Positions 17,600-23,702 of a stretch of 31,869 nucleotides of DNA are shown here, in pieces. The notes beneath the pieces were generated by a model that had not been told where the DNA came from, ran no database searches, and saw only the letters and a program-made list of their open reading frames with translations. Numbering within the stretch: position 1 is the stretch's first letter; each line of letters starts with the position of its first letter. Source of the DNA: a virus; IMG/VR virus record IMGVR_UViG_3300020174_000040, positions 1 to 31,869 of that record; one strand, written 5' to 3'. A program made the position numbers and the translations under genes.

Positions 17600-18046
17600 A
17601 TGACTAATAAAGCACTTTCTATTTTTAATCAATTAAGACCGGTAACCGTTGGGTTTGATAACGTGTTCGACCACTTTGAAAGAATGATGGACGACCATAA
17701 TTTCAACGAAATGGTTAGATATAACTATCCACCATACAATATCGTAAAGACAGGTAACTTTACTTACAATATTGAACTAGCACTTGCTGGTTTCAGTAAA
17801 AAAGATATTGAAATCAATATGGAAGATGGTGTCTTAAATATTAAATCAGCTGTAGAAGCAACTAAAGACAAAGACGAGGATGGAGTAATCCATAAAGGTA
17901 TCGCTAAAAGATATTTCTCTAAATCTTTTACAATCGCTGATGATGTTGAAGTTAAAGGCGCTGAATTAAAAGATGGTCTTTTAAAAGTGTCTTTAGAAAG
18001 AATTGTTCCAGAGTCTAAAAAACCAAGAACAATTAATATTAAGTAA
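17600..18046 (+). CDS. Small heat-shock protein Hsp20 (alpha-crystallin family)
   Basis: ATP-independent holdase chaperone of 148 residues, similar in length to IbpA. The alpha-crystallin domain spans about residues 43-132: YPPYNIVKTGNFTYNIELALAGFSKKDI at its start, the DGVLNI strand, and the A-x-x-x-(D)GLLKVSLER signature near the end. The C-terminus carries the I-x-I type motif TINIK used for oligomer contacts. AAGGAGG at 17588-17594 fixes the start. Hsp20 genes are common in marine T4-like phages and are thought to help virion protein folding. A terminator follows directly. Confidence 0.95.
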   Translation: MTNKALSIFNQLRPVTVGFDNVFDHFERMMDDHNFNEMVRYNYPPYNIVKTGNFTYNIELALAGFSKKDIEINMEDGVLNIKSAVEATKDKDEDGVIHKGIAKRYFSKSFTIADDVEVKGAELKDGLLKVSLERIVPESKKPRTINIK

Positions 18047-18058
18047 ATAGTAAAATAG

Positions 18059-18089
18059 AAGGCGGAGAGCTTGACTTTCCGCCTTTTTT
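18059..18089 (+). terminator. Intrinsic terminator after Hsp20, overlapping the next promoter
   Basis: AAGGCGGA (18059-18066) pairs with TCCGCCTT (18078-18085) around an 11-nt loop, followed by a T run to 18089. The loop contains the -35 of the following promoter. Confidence 0.9.
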
Positions 18090-18099
18090 ATGTTATAAT
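18071..18099 (+). promoter_or_regulatory. Strong sigma70-type promoter of the DUF262-methyltransferase cassette
   Basis: TTGACT (18071-18076), 17-bp spacer, TATAAT (18094-18099): the best promoter in the window. Its -35 lies in the loop of the Hsp20 terminator and its spacer holds the 3' stem arm and the T run. The SD GTGGAGG and ATG of the next gene follow 21-38 bases downstream. Confidence 0.9.
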
Positions 18100-18136: not shown

Positions 18137-19549
18137 ATGAGTATTATTTTTAGACAAGTGAAATCTGATACTGAAGAAGTACCAATGTTGGATTTTATCA
18201 AAAGGGTAGAACCAAATCAAGCAGCCGACAAGGCCTTTCAAGCAAATGAATTTACAAGGTGGAAAATAGAGCAAGGCTCTAGTTATATGACTTCTACAAT
18301 TAGAAATATGGCACCTAGTAAATTTATATTTTGTGATGTTGAAAAGTGTTTAAAATCTGCTATTGAAAGAGAATCAAAAATAGATGAAGAATATTTCCAA
18401 AAATGGCTAGACGCTGGTGTTACATATTTAAATTTAGATTCTAATAATAGAACAATCAATATTGTAGGTTTTATTGACGGTAGTTTTGGTGTTGAAGAAG
18501 GAACTTACGAAATTGAGGGTAATATTTTTAAAATTAAAACTGATTTAAATGATAAACTTGTTTTTGATAGAGAAAAAAATGAAGTTGATTATACAAAAAC
18601 AACTTTACCTAAAGCAATTGTATCAGCATTTTTAGAAGCAAGAGTAAATTTAGAAATATATACAGATACAACGAGAGAAGAATTATCCGAAGTGTTTACT
18701 AGAATTAATGACGGTAAACCTTTGAATGAACCTGAAAAAAGAAATGCTAGAACTAGTGATGTTGCTAATGTAATTAGAGAATTAGCTGAACAACATAAAG
18801 ATAGATTCTTTAATTCACTTACTAAATGGTTTACACCAGAACAACAAAATAGAAGAGGCTTAGATGATTTTATTGCTGGTATGTGCCACGTATTTTTTGA
18901 AGGTGCTGAAACAACAATATCACCAGCTTCATTAAATTCTATGTATAGAATTGGTTCCGAAGTAGATCAAAACATAAATCTATTTAAAAAAAGATTTAAT
19001 CAGTTTATGAGTTGGGTATCAAAAGGTGATTTAAATGCTATACCTAATAGAAACTCTATCTTTGATTTATGGATAATTTTCATAGATTTAAAAAATGATA
19101 AAAAAGAAATTAAACCAGGTAAAGAAGACGCTTTTATTAATCACTATGTAAAAGTAGTAGGTGATTTATTAAGAGATAAAACTCCATATCCTTGTGGTAA
19201 AGGTGACCCTAAATCGTTTGAAACAATGGTAGGTGGCAGACAAGCAGCCAACAATGTTAAAAGAAATCAGATGATTATGGAAAAACTTGATGTTGATGAA
19301 TACTTTATTAAAATGGATTCAAAAAGAGTTGTCAATGATAGTGATAAACTAGCTGTGGCTGCCAGAGATAACTTTAAAACACCAGAAGGAAAAGATATTG
19401 ATTTATCAAAATTACAAACAAAAGAATATCATAAAGGACACGTAAATTCTTATAGAGATACAGGTGATACTTCAATAGATAATACGGTTATTCAGACAGA
19501 TATAGATAACTGGAAAACAGGTACAAAAAAGGTGAAAGTTAGTGTTTAG
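18137..19549 (+). CDS. DUF262 (GmrS/ParB-like) protein with HNH-like C-terminus, putative nuclease
   Basis: A 470-residue protein. The DUF262 core is seen as YLNLDSNNRTINIVGFIDG (97-115), where the family has a DGQQR motif; D101 and R105 are kept and GQQ is replaced by SNN. FTRINDGKPLNEPEKRNAR (187-205) matches the family F-x-R-x-N...L...E-x-R-N-A signature. The C-terminal part contains YHKGHVN then SIDNTVIQTDIDNWKTG, which recalls an HNH nuclease (GH...N...N..KG). DUF262 proteins include the GmrSD type IV restriction enzymes. It overlaps a DNA adenine methyltransferase gene by 8 bases, suggesting a restriction-modification-like pair, either acting on competing DNA or inherited as a selfish cassette. 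Activity is inferred. Confidence 0.78.
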   Translation: MSIIFRQVKSDTEEVPMLDFIKRVEPNQAADKAFQANEFTRWKIEQGSSYMTSTIRNMAPSKFIFCDVEKCLKSAIERESKIDEEYFQKWLDAGVTYLNLDSNNRTINIVGFIDGSFGVEEGTYEIEGNIFKIKTDLNDKLVFDREKNEVDYTKTTLPKAIVSAFLEARVNLEIYTDTTREELSEVFTRINDGKPLNEPEKRNARTSDVANVIRELAEQHKDRFFNSLTKWFTPEQQNRRGLDDFIAGMCHVFFEGAETTISPASLNSMYRIGSEVDQNINLFKKRFNQFMSWVSKGDLNAIPNRNSIFDLWIIFIDLKNDKKEIKPGKEDAFINHYVKVVGDLLRDKTPYPCGKGDPKSFETMVGGRQAANNVKRNQMIMEKLDVDEYFIKMDSKRVVNDSDKLAVAARDNFKTPEGKDIDLSKLQTKEYHKGHVNSYRDTGDTSIDNTVIQTDIDNWKTGTKKVKVSV

Positions 19550-20366
19550 TTATCTTGGTGGTAAAAAGTTTCAGGCAAAATGGATTGCCTCCAACTTTCC
19601 AAAACATAATACTTATGTTGAACCATTTGGTGGTGCCTATTGGGTTTATTTTGTGGCCAACCACCAAATAGATCAGGCTCATACAAATGTATATAATGAT
19701 TTTAATAGAGATATAGCAAATATATTTCATTGTGCCAGACATAAAGATAGAGAATTTTTAAAATCTTTATTGTCATATGAACCACAACAAGAAGAAATTT
19801 TTAATCAATTTAAATCAGATTTAATACCATTTAATACAGACTTTGAACTAGGTGATATTGAAAGAGCCACAAAATATATCTACCTACAAACTCAAAGTTT
19901 TAGTGGTGATACTCTAAATGAAAAAACAAAGTTTGTAAATTTAAAAGGTAAATATAAATCAAAGTATCAACATTTTATAGATAAAATTAGTGATAAAAAA
20001 TGGTTATATTTTATTAAAGGCATAAATCATATTCATAACGAATCATATGAAACAGTTATTAATATGTATGATAAAGAAGATACATTATTTTATGTTGATC
20101 CTCCATACTATAAAATGGAAGATTACTATGTAAAAGACTTTCAAAGAAGCCAGCACGAAGACCTGGCCAATAAACTAAAAGAAATAAAAGGTAAATTTGT
20201 ATTGTCTTATTATGACTTTCCAGATTTACAAAAGTGGTTTCCAAAAGATCAATACACTTGGATAGAAAAAGAATTTAATAAACAAAACGCTAGTAAAAAC
20301 AAAGGCGCTGGTAAAGGTAAAGAAGTATTAATTATGAATTATAAACCAGCATTGACTTTAGAATAG
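19542..20366 (+). CDS. dam: DNA adenine methyltransferase, D12/Dam family
   Basis: N6-adenine methyltransferase of 274 residues (T4 Dam is 259). The SAM-binding FSYLGGK motif is at 2-8, TYVEPFGGAYWV (24-35) is the second family block, and the catalytic DPPYY is at 186-190. The start codon is GTG at 19542, inside the end of the DUF262 gene, so the two are probably translated together. Target sequence cannot be read from the protein; GATC is typical for the family. The end of the gene carries the tRNA-Gly promoter. Confidence 0.9.
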   Translation: MFSYLGGKKFQAKWIASNFPKHNTYVEPFGGAYWVYFVANHQIDQAHTNVYNDFNRDIANIFHCARHKDREFLKSLLSYEPQQEEIFNQFKSDLIPFNTDFELGDIERATKYIYLQTQSFSGDTLNEKTKFVNLKGKYKSKYQHFIDKISDKKWLYFIKGINHIHNESYETVINMYDKEDTLFYVDPPYYKMEDYYVKDFQRSQHEDLANKLKEIKGKFVLSYYDFPDLQKWFPKDQYTWIEKEFNKQNASKNKGAGKGKEVLIMNYKPALTLE

Positions 20367-20380
20367 CTTTGTGATATATT
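20352..20380 (+). promoter_or_regulatory. Sigma70-type promoter starting exactly at a tRNA-Gly
   Basis: TTGACT (20352-20357), 17-bp spacer, TATATT (20375-20380). Seven bases later comes the first base of the tRNA acceptor stem, so the primary transcript would need little or no 5' trimming. Confidence 0.8.
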
Positions 20381-20387
20381 AAATAAT

Positions 20388-20461
20388 GCGGATGTCGTAT
20401 AAAAGTAATACACTTGGTTTCCAACCAGGAAAAGATTGGGCAGTACAGTCCATCCGCTCCA
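20388..20461 (+). tRNA. trnG: tRNA-Gly(UCC) with altered D- and T-loops
   Basis: A 74-nt cloverleaf can be folded by hand. Acceptor GCGGATG/CATCCGC, discriminator T and encoded CCA; D-stem GTAT/ATAC with loop AAAAGTA; anticodon stem CTTGG/CCAGG with loop TTTCCAA (anticodon TCC); 4-nt variable loop; T-stem GATTG/CAGTC with loop GGCAGTA. The D-loop has A where G18 is expected but keeps G19. The T-loop lacks the TTCRA consensus, having G at 55 but keeping C56 and a purine at 57. First pair G-C and U73 suit glycine. It has its own promoter and precedes the peroxiredoxin gene by 22 bases. Confidence 0.82.
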
Positions 20462-20483: not shown

Positions 20484-21026
20484 ATGTTTGATAAATTTGT
20501 AATACCAAAAACTAATTTTAAAATAAGAGAAGGCGATTCTGTATTAGAAGATGGCTGTAACTTTGATGAGGGTAAGTGGGTAGAAAAATCTACAGACGAC
20601 TTTTTTAAAGGCAAAAGAGTTGTATTGTTTTCTCTACCTGGTGCTTTTACACCAACTTGTACATCTACTCAATTACCAGGCTTTGATGAAAACTATGAAA
20701 AAATTAAAAGTCTTGGAATAGATGAAATCTATTGTTGTTCAGTAAATGATACATTTGTTATGAACGCTTGGGCAGAAATTTTAAAAATCAAAAATGTAAA
20801 AGTAATTCCTGATGGATCTGGTAATTTTACTAGATTTATGGGAATGTTAATTGGAAAAAATCATAAAGGCTTTGGTAATAGAAGTTGGAGATATATGGCA
20901 GTTATTAACGATGGAGTTGTTGAAAAGTGGTGGCAAGAACCAGGTATCAATAATGACGGATCAGATAATGACCCATACGTTGAAACTACACCAGAGAATA
21001 TGATAAGTTATTTGAAATCAAAATAA
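20484..21026 (+). CDS. Peroxiredoxin (Prx5/AhpE-like)
   Basis: Thiol peroxidase of 180 residues that reduces peroxides. The active-site block LPGAFTPTCTSTQLPGF places the peroxidatic Cys at 59 with the family P-x-x-x-(T/S)-x-x-C pattern. The downstream NDTFVMNAWAE, DGSGNFTRFMGM and WRYMAVIND segments are typical of the Prx5 group, where W and R complete the active site. The N-terminal 40 residues are longer than usual for Prx5. GAGGAG (20472-20477) supports the start. It follows the tRNA-Gly on the same transcript. A role in limiting oxidative stress during infection is inferred. Confidence 0.93.
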   Translation: MFDKFVIPKTNFKIREGDSVLEDGCNFDEGKWVEKSTDDFFKGKRVVLFSLPGAFTPTCTSTQLPGFDENYEKIKSLGIDEIYCCSVNDTFVMNAWAEILKIKNVKVIPDGSGNFTRFMGMLIGKNHKGFGNRSWRYMAVINDGVVEKWWQEPGINNDGSDNDPYVETTPENMISYLKSK

Positions 21027-21087: not shown

Positions 21088-21753
21088 ATGAATCTATCAA
21101 GTGATACGGTTTCTGTATTAAAAAACTTTTCAGACATTAATCAAAATATATTGGTTAAACCTGGAAACAAAGTACAGACAATCTCTACAATGAAAAATAT
21201 TTTAGCAGAAGCTGAAATATCAGAAAAGTTTGAAAGCGAATTTGCTATCTATGATCTACCAGAATTTTTGAGATCAGTAGAACTTTTTGAAAAACCAGAA
21301 CTAAAGTTTAATGGTGGATCAAATGTTCAGATTGCTGATTCTAATTCTAAACAGGCAATAAAATATTTCTTTGCTGACAAATCAGTTATTGTTTCGCCTA
21401 CAAAGAATATTACAATGCCAGATAAAGAAGTTACTTTTACATTTAAAAAAGAAACCTTTTCTAAATTACTAAAAGCAGCTACTACATTAAATTTACCAGA
21501 TGTTGCCGTTAAAGGTGATGGTAAATCAATTAAATTAATTGCTACAGATAAGAAAAACAAATCTTCAAATGATTATTCTATTGAAGTTGGTGAGACCGAT
21601 AAAACATTTACGGCCTATTTTAAAACTGAAAACTTTAAAATGGTTTCAGATGATTATGATGTAGCAATATCTAAACAAAAGATAAGTCATTTTGTAAACA
21701 GAAATAAACCTATACAATATTGGATAGCATTAGAACCAGATTCGGAGTTTTAA
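21088..21753 (+). CDS. 45: Sliding clamp (T4 gp45 family)
   Basis: Trimeric DNA clamp, processivity factor for gp43 and activator of late transcription with gp55. It has 221 residues against 228 in T4. The N-terminal LSSDTVSVLKNFSDINQNILVKPGN is typical, as are the EFAIYDLPEFLRSVELFE segment (about 51-68) and the C-terminal FYW-like IQYWIALEPDSEF. AAGGAG lies at 21076-21081 before the ATG. It heads the 45-44-62-regA replication cluster, in the same order as T4. Confidence 0.94.
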   Translation: MNLSSDTVSVLKNFSDINQNILVKPGNKVQTISTMKNILAEAEISEKFESEFAIYDLPEFLRSVELFEKPELKFNGGSNVQIADSNSKQAIKYFFADKSVIVSPTKNITMPDKEVTFTFKKETFSKLLKAATTLNLPDVAVKGDGKSIKLIATDKKNKSSNDYSIEVGETDKTFTAYFKTENFKMVSDDYDVAISKQKISHFVNRNKPIQYWIALEPDSEF

Positions 21754-22127: not shown

Positions 22128-23072
22128 ATGTCAGATTTTTTGTGGGTTGAAAAATACCGTCCAAAAAAGATAAGCGATTGTATTCTTACCGAAGATTTAA
22201 AGAATACATTTACACAATTTCTAAAACAAAAAGAAATACCTAACCTATTGTTGTCTGGTACTGCCGGTACTGGTAAAACAACAGTAGCAAGAGCCTTATG
22301 TGAAGAACTAGGTAGTGATTATATCATTATTAATGGTTCAGACGAAGGCCGTCAAATAGATACATTAAGAAATAAGATTAAAAACTTTGCTTCTACTGTA
22401 TCTCTTACCGAAGACGCTAATCATAAAGTTGTCATAATTGATGAGGCAGATTATATGAACGCTGATAGTGTTCAGCCTGCTTTAAGAAACTTTATAGAAA
22501 CATTTTACAATAATTGTAGATTTATATTTACTTGTAATTATGTCAATAAGATAATACCAGCATTACATAGTCGTTGTACTGTCATTGATTTTGCCATAAA
22601 AAATGGTCAAAAGGTAAAGACGGCTACTGCCTTTATGAAACGATTAGGTGGTATACTTGATGATGAGAATATAGAATATGACAAAAAAGTATTGTCAGAA
22701 TTAATACAAAAGTATTATCCAGACTTTAGAAGAACTATCAACGAACTACAAAGATATTCAGTTAGAGGTAAGATTGATAGTGGTATTCTTTTTAGTCTAT
22801 CAGAAGCTAATACCAAAGAACTCATAGTATCATTAAAAGAAAAAAGATTTAATGATATGAGAAAATGGGTTGTTCAGAACTTGGACAAAGAGGCCTCTTT
22901 TCTATTTAAAACTATCTATGATGTTCTCTATACAGCACTAGACTCTAAATCTATTCCTCAATCTATATTAATTTTGGCTGGGTATCAATATAAATCTGCC
23001 TTTGTTGCTGACCAGGAGATAAATATGGTTGCCTGCCTTACAGAAATAATGGCGAGTTGTAAATTTAAATAA
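22128..23072 (+). CDS. 44: Clamp loader ATPase subunit (T4 gp44 family)
   Basis: AAA+ ATPase that, with gp62, opens and loads the gp45 clamp. It has 314 residues (T4 319). Walker A is GTAGTGKT at 44-51, Walker B is VVIIDEAD at 101-108, the SRC arginine-finger motif is at 148-150, and the RFC-like WVEKYRPKKISD block opens the protein. It lies 25 bases after the acidic gene, with a GTGAGG SD. Confidence 0.96.
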   Translation: MSDFLWVEKYRPKKISDCILTEDLKNTFTQFLKQKEIPNLLLSGTAGTGKTTVARALCEELGSDYIIINGSDEGRQIDTLRNKIKNFASTVSLTEDANHKVVIIDEADYMNADSVQPALRNFIETFYNNCRFIFTCNYVNKIIPALHSRCTVIDFAIKNGQKVKTATAFMKRLGGILDDENIEYDKKVLSELIQKYYPDFRRTINELQRYSVRGKIDSGILFSLSEANTKELIVSLKEKRFNDMRKWVVQNLDKEASFLFKTIYDVLYTALDSKSIPQSILILAGYQYKSAFVADQEINMVACLTEIMASCKFK

Positions 23073-23227: not shown

Positions 23228-23301
23228 GCGGATATGGTATAGAAGTATTACGCCACGTTGCCAACGTGGAGATGGCGGAGCGTTACCGCCTATCCGCTCC
23301 A
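23228..23301 (+). tRNA. trnG: tRNA-Gly(GCC) with altered D- and T-loops
   Basis: Second 74-nt cloverleaf. Acceptor GCGGATA/TATCCGC, T discriminator and encoded CCA; D-stem GTAT/TTAC with one T-T mismatch and loop AGAAGTA; anticodon stem CCACG/CGTGG with loop TTGCCAA (anticodon GCC); 4-nt variable loop AGAT; T-stem GGCGG/CCGCC with loop AGCGTTA. As in the UCC tRNA, position 18 is A, G19 and C56 are kept, position 55 is G, and A58 is lost. No separate promoter is clear; it probably comes from the 45-44 transcript. The gp62 start codon is only 8 bases after the CCA. Confidence 0.85.
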
Positions 23302-23309
23302 GAATTATT

Positions 23310-23702
23310 ATGTACGAATTGAAAGATTACTTAAACGCTATAAACTTTACTAAAGAAAATCTATTAGATACAGACGATTTAACGTGGGAAAAGAAGTATC
23401 CACCGTTTATCATTAACAAGTGTTTATCAATGCATTATGACAGTATAGCAGCTGCCAATGAAATGAATGGTTATCACTTTTTAGATAAGAAAGTCCAGTT
23501 TCATTTTTTGATAAATAGTATTAGAAAAAAGAAGCGATTTGGTGGCAAATGGTTATCACAAGCCAAATTGAAGAATTTAGAGTATGTCAAAGAATATTAT
23601 GGATATAGTAATGAGAAAGCAAAACAAGCACTTAGCATACTAAAAGACGAACAAATTGAATTTATAAAAGAGACCTTGAACAAAGGTGGGAGAAAAAAAT
23701 GA
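23310..23702 (+). CDS. 62: Clamp loader small subunit (T4 gp62 family)
   Basis: Small subunit that bridges the gp44 ATPase ring. The 130-residue protein matches the short marine T4-like gp62 rather than the 187-residue T4 form: KYPPFIINKCLSMHYDSIAAANEMN (about 29-53), LDKKVQFHFLINSIRKKKRFG, then EYYGYSNEKAKQALSIL. There is no SD between the tRNA CCA end (23301) and the ATG (23310). It ends with an ATGA overlap into regA. Confidence 0.88.
   Translation: MYELKDYLNAINFTKENLLDTDDLTWEKKYPPFIINKCLSMHYDSIAAANEMNGYHFLDKKVQFHFLINSIRKKKRFGGKWLSQAKLKNLEYVKEYYGYSNEKAKQALSILKDEQIEFIKETLNKGGRKK

Follow-up and report, generated by a model that had tools for sequence, protein, structure and literature searches.

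An A18/G55 elbow in phage tRNAs, a probable alternative design for the tRNA corner

Introduction

The contact between G18 and Psi55 is one of those that shape every standard tRNA. Psi55 is termed universally conserved in reviews (PMC4810234, PMC7912444). Departures from the standard elbow have been described in two groups of tRNAs that come close to those considered here. Non-proteinogenic tRNA-Gly of staphylococci carry UU or CU at positions 18-19 together with A49-U65/A51-U63 (PMC4052509), and eukaryotic tRNA-Ala(AGC) contains R15/A48 and A54/A58 pairs, which are stated to be absent from bacterial and archaeal tRNAs (PMC7566577). A review of non-canonical tRNAs (PMC7609411) makes no mention of A18, G55 or phage, and A18-G55 and its spelling variants gave no match in the open literature, most subscription papers lying outside that search.

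Here we analyse two phage tRNA-Gly genes in which A18 and G55 take the place of G18 and U55. They share with the canonical bacterial elbow the cloverleaf, G19-C56, U8-A14, G53-C61, a 7-nt T-loop and CCA, but where that elbow has G18-Psi55 and T54-A58 they have A18 with G55, G-G or A-U at 54-58, and A60, and TruB cannot modify position 55. As in staphylococci, these are tRNA-Gly with altered D- and T-loops and U73; unlike the staphylococcal tRNAs, they read A18 G19 rather than UU or CU, and in place of A49-U65/A51-U63 they have G49-C65 in both genes and U51-G63 (UCC) or C51-G63 (GCC). Eukaryotic tRNA-Ala(AGC) resembles phage tRNAs in having a purine-purine 54-58 combination with a purine at 60, and further likenesses are purine-purine 15-48 in some members and A34 in some phage tRNAs. 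It differs in that an 18-55 change is not among its listed unusual pairs and in that the phage 54-58 combination is G-G or A-U.

Two tRNA-Gly genes in the replication region of a T4-like phage

The window, by which we mean the whole stretch of DNA analysed, is a 31.9-kb virus record from a T4-like marine myovirus, and BLAST places it near the Pelagibacter phages Mosig EXVC030M and HTVC008M, which are T4-like Kyanoviridae. Its replication region houses both tRNA-Gly genes, with neighbours named by Pfam (Table 1). Rfam model RF00005 matched the UCC gene at 20388-20458 with 39.3 bits and the GCC gene at 23228-23298 with 51.9 bits, against a gathering score of 29, while ARAGORN called the GCC gene and missed the UCC gene. 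The UCC gene parses as GCGGAUG UC GUAU AAAAGUA AUAC A CUUGG UUUCCAA CCAGG AAAA GAUUG GGCAGUA CAGUC CAUCCGC U CCA, with 21 of 21 helical positions paired, and its minimum-free-energy fold is the cloverleaf (z = -3.5); in the GCC gene, 20 of 21 positions are paired. U73 and an encoded CCA are present in both, and the marks of bacterial tRNA-Gly (G1-C72, C2-G71, C35 C36 and U73) were found by sequence and alignment.

Table 1. Coordinates of the tRNA genes, their loops and neighbouring features in the window
Feature	Position	Strand	Basis and remarks
D12-class N6-adenine DNA methyltransferase	19542..20366	+	Pfam PF02086, 2.4e-21; 3' end overlaps -35 element
Promoter-like TTGACT-17-TATATT	20352..20380	+	Sigma-70-like consensus; -10 ends 7 nt before tRNA G1
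tRNA-Gly(UCC), A18/G55 elbow, encoded CCA	20388..20461	+	Rfam RF00005, cloverleaf parse, fold z -3.5
D-loop AAAAGUA of tRNA-Gly(UCC): A14 A15 A16 A18 G19 U20 A21	20401..20407	+	cmscan alignment, parse
T-loop GGCAGUA of tRNA-Gly(UCC): G54 G55 C56 A57 G58 U59 A60	20439..20445	+	cmscan alignment, parse
Redoxin/AhpC-TSA peroxiredoxin, downstream of tRNA-Gly(UCC)	20484..21026	+	Pfam PF08534, 5.6e-24
gp45 sliding clamp	21088..21753	+	Pfam PF09116
gp44 clamp loader, upstream of tRNA-Gly(GCC)	22128..23072	+	Pfam PF21328 Gp44_lid
tRNA-Gly(GCC), A18/G55 elbow, encoded CCA, between genes 44 and 62	23228..23301	+	ARAGORN, Rfam, parse
D-loop AGAAGUA of tRNA-Gly(GCC): A18 = 23244, G19 = 23245	23241..23247	+	cmscan alignment, parse
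T-loop AGCGUUA of tRNA-Gly(GCC): A54 G55 C56 G57 U58 U59 A60; G55 = 23280	23279..23285	+	cmscan alignment, parse
gp62 clamp-loader subunit, downstream of tRNA-Gly(GCC)	23310..23702	+	Pfam PF16790

In the UCC gene, A18 lies at 20404, G19 at 20405, G55 at 20440 and C56 at 20441, and positions 54 and 58 are both G. The G18 and U55 typical of RF00005 are absent from both window tRNAs, and A18 and G55 stand there instead as a paired exchange. The initial annotation had read A18/G55 in place of G18/Psi55 in the UCC gene, with G19-C56 still able to form and CCA encoded, and had noted the same exchange in the second tRNA-Gly; the parse and the Rfam alignment bear out the first reading exactly, and the parse finds A18 and G55 in the GCC gene too. 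Both genes therefore belong to the A18/G55 elbow class as we define it (A18 with G55, G19-C56 kept, full stems). Glycine codons in the window number 329 GGT, 93 GGC, 56 GGA and 8 GGG; since GGT and GGC are the commonest, the GCC tRNA-Gly would serve the common codons.

The exchange is paired and conserved among viral tRNA-Gly

Homologues were gathered through gp44, independently of tRNA content, giving 80 IMG/VR contigs. Within this set tRNA-Gly with G55 always has A18 and tRNA-Gly with U55 has G18; the tRNA-Thr and tRNA-Ala genes of these phages are canonical. A first, narrow pattern run against viral sequences had given 0 matches. Four pattern scans of IMG/VR for tRNA-Gly returned at least 120 stretches with A18/G55, 3 with A18 and no G55, 0 with G55 and no A18, and at least 120 with neither. 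Counted as distinct viral tRNA-Gly genes, 116 are G18/U55 and 69 A18/G55, the remainder being G18/C55 (3), A18/C55 (1) and A18/U55 (1). The alignment also shows that tRNA-Gly homologues keep G1-C72, C2-G71, C35, C36, U73 and CCA.

The gp44-gp62 gap holds a canonical tRNA-Gly in some phages and an A18/G55 one in others. The clearest single case of a switch between G18/U55 and A18/G55 is provided by contigs L163 and L020, which have the common order gp44, tRNA-Gly, tRNA-Thr, gp62 and helical cores that are 92% identical. At this orthologous locus L163 is canonical (AGTGGTA / TTCGAAT) and L020 is A18/G55 (AGTAGTA / TGCGAAT), so that 18 and 55 are the sole differences in the D- and T-loops. The exchange is present in dozens of homologous contigs and in the cultured phages Mosig and HTVC008M, which excludes chance. 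Random decay, against which the initial annotation had argued, is ruled out by conservation and covariation, the exchange being compensatory. Canonical homologues at the locus, which together with random changes had been named as grounds for doubt, are indeed present at one of the two loci, but the changes are a paired exchange and not random.

Existing annotations overlook some of these genes. In GenBank, a hypothetical protein (QOI68975.1, 5527-5622) overlies the unannotated A18/G55 tRNA-Gly of Mosig (our L083), which ARAGORN also misses, and the A18/G55 tRNA-Gly of HTVC008M likewise lacks annotation. The Mosig gene and the UCC gene of the window, both missed by ARAGORN, mean that tRNA finders overlook a portion of the tRNAs that phages encode.

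Several further features were seen in these phages. An ACC anticodon (A34) occurs in many phage tRNA-Gly, amounting to 20 distinct genes (for example L083 5544-5617, L084 6510-6583, L009, L029, L056 and L059); A34 in four-codon boxes is reportedly avoided in bacteria. Related pelagimyophages carry a tRNA-Ala(UGC) with a fully canonical elbow between a RimK-like gene and gp43 (L006, L024, L025, L029), or a tRNA-Thr(UGU) with a fully canonical elbow after tRNA-Gly (L020, L021, L028), in both cases at neighbouring sites among the replication genes.

A18/G55 extends to about twenty amino-acid identities

Scans for A18/G55 with non-glycine anticodons or an 8-nt D-loop gave matches that are mostly perfect cloverleaves, and a glycine-specific function is thereby ruled out. 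Among 1,404 distinct viral tRNAs of the fetched contigs, 303 are A18/G55, and 21 further apparent G18/G55 tRNAs proved on inspection to read A18 G19 G20. An excess of 4-nt variable loops in the non-glycine set is an artefact of the search patterns. About twenty amino-acid identities are represented among the A18/G55 phage tRNAs, Gly, Met, Ile, Gln, His, Val and Thr being some of them, and two of these tRNAs have the amber-reading anticodon CUA (L539 8122-8195, L566 3032-3105). Those with CAU mostly have a mismatch at 1-72 (C.A in 13, A.A in 9; for example L530, L562 and L599), which is a mark of initiator tRNA, and we call them initiator-like for this reason. Contigs differ in composition, some having nearly all their tRNAs in the A18/G55 form and others a mixture with canonical ones. 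In contigs not chosen for the trait, 7 of 414 tRNAs are A18/G55, a rough estimate of viral prevalence. Named phages with the exchange are Mosig and HTVC008M (tRNA-Gly) and Pseudomonas phage 16Q (tRNA-Ile, tRNA-Pro), whose tRNA genes have close DNA relatives in KIL1-KIL5 and PHB09. The tRNAs that BLAST brought up from Streptomyces phage CeilingFan, cyanophage S-SSM7, E. coli phage ESCO13 and a Rhizobium phage are canonical.

A18/G55 is rare in bacteria

Among bacteria, A18/G55 tRNA-Gly was found in Streptomyces (UCC), in some Patescibacteria (GCC) and in one Myxococcales genome. A sample of 145 genomes taken across phyla yielded it in only three, always as the matched pair, and no non-glycine A18/G55 tRNA was found by the V4 pattern in 113 Myxococcota and 120 Actinomycetota genomes; the non-glycine pattern matches in Actinomycetota are not tRNAs. 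The Streptomyces and Patescibacteria tRNA-Gly share A18/G55 with the phage tRNAs and keep U54-A58. They differ in being chromosomal and in being restricted to glycine as far as searched; the G54-G58 and A54-U58 forms of phages were not seen in them. One Patescibacteria genome has 48 tRNAs, and in the portion that could be parsed no GCC tRNA-Gly other than the A18/G55 gene was seen, suggesting that this gene takes part in decoding.

Streptomyces have the A18/G55 tRNA-Gly(UCC) in addition to a canonical UCC gene, so that it may have a non-decoding role in these bacteria. In Streptomyces and relatives (L198, L204, L253, L281) an extra A18/G55 tRNA-Gly(UCC) stands beside GCC genes. Its T-stem contains a T that is mismatched or bulged (GCAGT GTGCAATT CCTGT), and this tRNA may donate glycine to cell-wall enzymes. 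The Streptomyces copy, and the fact that the window genes are glycine isoacceptors with changed D- and T-loops, would fit a reading in which the phage tRNAs are of the staphylococcal non-proteinogenic type, avoiding EF-Tu and donating glycine elsewhere. We regard this as very unlikely, since G19-C56 is retained, the weak A-U pairs described for staphylococci are missing at 49-65 and 51-63, the swap is found in about twenty isotypes, initiator-like Met included, and a look through the window ORFs, short of a family search, revealed no Fem-type transferase. The likeness to staphylococcal tRNA-Gly drawn in the initial annotation thus breaks down at 18-19, at 49-65/51-63 and in the swap not being specific to glycine. 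Its suggestion of a role other than ordinary decoding through weakened EF-Tu binding finds no support in G19-C56, the T-stem pairs or the range of isotypes.

The near-restriction of A18/G55 to phages outside tRNA-Gly (7 of 414 phage tRNAs, as against no tRNA match to the V4 pattern in 113 Myxococcota and 120 Actinomycetota genomes) would be expected if phage tRNAs, while decoding normally, used the swapped elbow to hide from enzymes of the host or of a defence system (nucleases, surveillance) that depend on G18, T54 or Psi55 for recognition. The initial annotation had likewise raised resistance to host tRNA-targeting enzymes, which may exist. Such evasion appears unlikely, because many contigs mix A18/G55 with canonical tRNAs that would be left exposed, and because no known defence was linked to these loci.

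Positions 18-55 and 54-58 covary

The search patterns had partly biased our first analysis of 18-55 covariation, which was therefore repeated with all pattern-selected tRNAs left out and with position 18 read blind to the T-loop. In these unselected viral tRNAs of all isotypes, the 18/55 combinations are G/U 527, A/G 75, G/C 13, C/U 2, C/G 2, U/G 2, A/U 1 and U/U 1. When corrected mutual information was ranked over 310 unselected tRNAs less than 75% identical, the top 18 pairs were all helical and the next two were 54-58 and 18-55, with 9-23 and the known Levitt pair 15-48 ranking lower. Mutual information of 18-55 was 0.667 against a maximum of 0.067 in 2,000 shuffles, which ignore relatedness; what covariation shows is coupling rather than geometry.

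The T-loop changes in step with the elbow. In G18/U55 tRNAs 54-58 is U-A in 979 of 1,043, whereas A18/G55 tRNAs have U-A (121), G-G (87), A-U (76) or C-A (9). Non-redundant A18/G55 tRNAs have A60 in 37 of 37 A-U and 26 of 30 G-G members and a pyrimidine at 60 in 63 of 65 U-A members. In a suppressor-tRNA study from the Steinberg group, G54-G58 was reportedly present in active tRNAs selected from libraries.

Shared ancestry alone is weakened as an explanation by 57 disjoint near-neighbour pairs of differing elbow class and by the orthologous locus with both forms. Parsimony gave 128 class changes against a shuffle mean of 250, on a noisy tRNA tree that makes these numbers only indicative. This scatter of changes over the tree, and the class change at an orthologous locus, are also what one would expect if A18-G55 were simply an equally good pair that arose by drift and spread among phages without special benefit. 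We consider a near-neutral exchange of this kind rather doubtful, though a serious contender: the same drift should act on cellular tRNAs, and these hardly ever change.

A model for the A18/G55 corner

The explanation that we favour, and think likely to be correct, is that these are functional phage tRNAs whose corner is built from alternative tertiary contacts and which decode during infection. A18 would pair with G55, replacing G18 with U/Psi55, and G19-C56 would stay. The T-loop would be closed by 54-58 as U-A, A-U, G-G or C-A, with A60 accompanying A-U and G-G. That A18 and G55 touch physically is what their covariation leads us to infer. A18/G55 phage tRNAs would be charged and would decode; for the window tRNAs the host glycyl-tRNA synthetase would most likely do the charging, and glycine codons would be decoded in infection. 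With no U at 55, often none at 54 and no G at 18, the usual elbow modifications are out of reach of host TruB, TrmA and TrmH. Such tRNAs presumably go without Psi55 by necessity, and often without T54 and Gm18, and their corner would have to hold without them. One point counts against a fully working elbow: the title of a paper cited in PMC4810234 presents the 18-55 pair of tRNA in the P site as important for translocation, and a changed pair might consequently slow decoding.

The benefit, if there is one, may be independence from modification. It is conceivable, though we would not put it at even chances, that phages repeatedly evolved a modification-independent elbow as an adaptation, so that their tRNAs, though lacking Psi55, T54 or Gm18, could still fold, survive or evade the enzymes of the host. 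If so, the alternative 54-58-60 contacts and A18-G55 would constitute a second phage tRNA elbow. With a strict double exchange repeated in about twenty isotypes, nature has run an experiment on the requirements of the elbow and on the purpose of Psi55 and T54; the A18/G55 class also bears on whether the tRNAs of phages evade modification or surveillance by the host.

Transcription of tRNA-Gly(UCC)

Upstream of tRNA-Gly(UCC) lies the promoter-like element of Table 1. Among tRNA-Gly(UCC/ACC) homologues, 24 of 58 are preceded by a promoter that scores 10 or more out of 12 and whose -10 box lies 6-9 nt ahead of the tRNA, and shuffles gave 0; the commonest distance among those that score is exactly 7 nt. 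Homologues with such a promoter include L009, L012, L026, L083 and L192. The promoter is usually missing at GCC tRNA-Gly genes, that of the window included. From the position of the element upstream of tRNA-Gly(UCC), and on consensus evidence, transcription probably starts at G1, in which case this tRNA may need no 5' trimming. No + strand terminator was found between tRNA-Gly(UCC) and the peroxiredoxin gene, and the tRNA is possibly a leaderless one heading the peroxiredoxin/gp45 mRNA.

Conserved promoters predicted to start at G1, with no terminator before the gene, raise the question of a role in cis, in which the folded tRNA at the 5' end of the peroxiredoxin/sliding-clamp mRNA would stabilise that message or boost its translation, with any adaptor role secondary. 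There is a precedent, in that tRNAs inserted into mRNA leaders raise translation 2-6.3-fold (PMC9142559). We nevertheless find a cis role very unlikely: anticodon residues C35 C36, U73 and CCA are all kept, the second tRNA (GCC) has no such promoter, and the change at 18-55 is left unexplained.

Elsewhere in the window, a sub-threshold match to the Rfam L20 leader (17992-18096, 27.3 bits) coincides with a G+C-rich hairpin and T run after an Hsp20 gene, which is probably a terminator.
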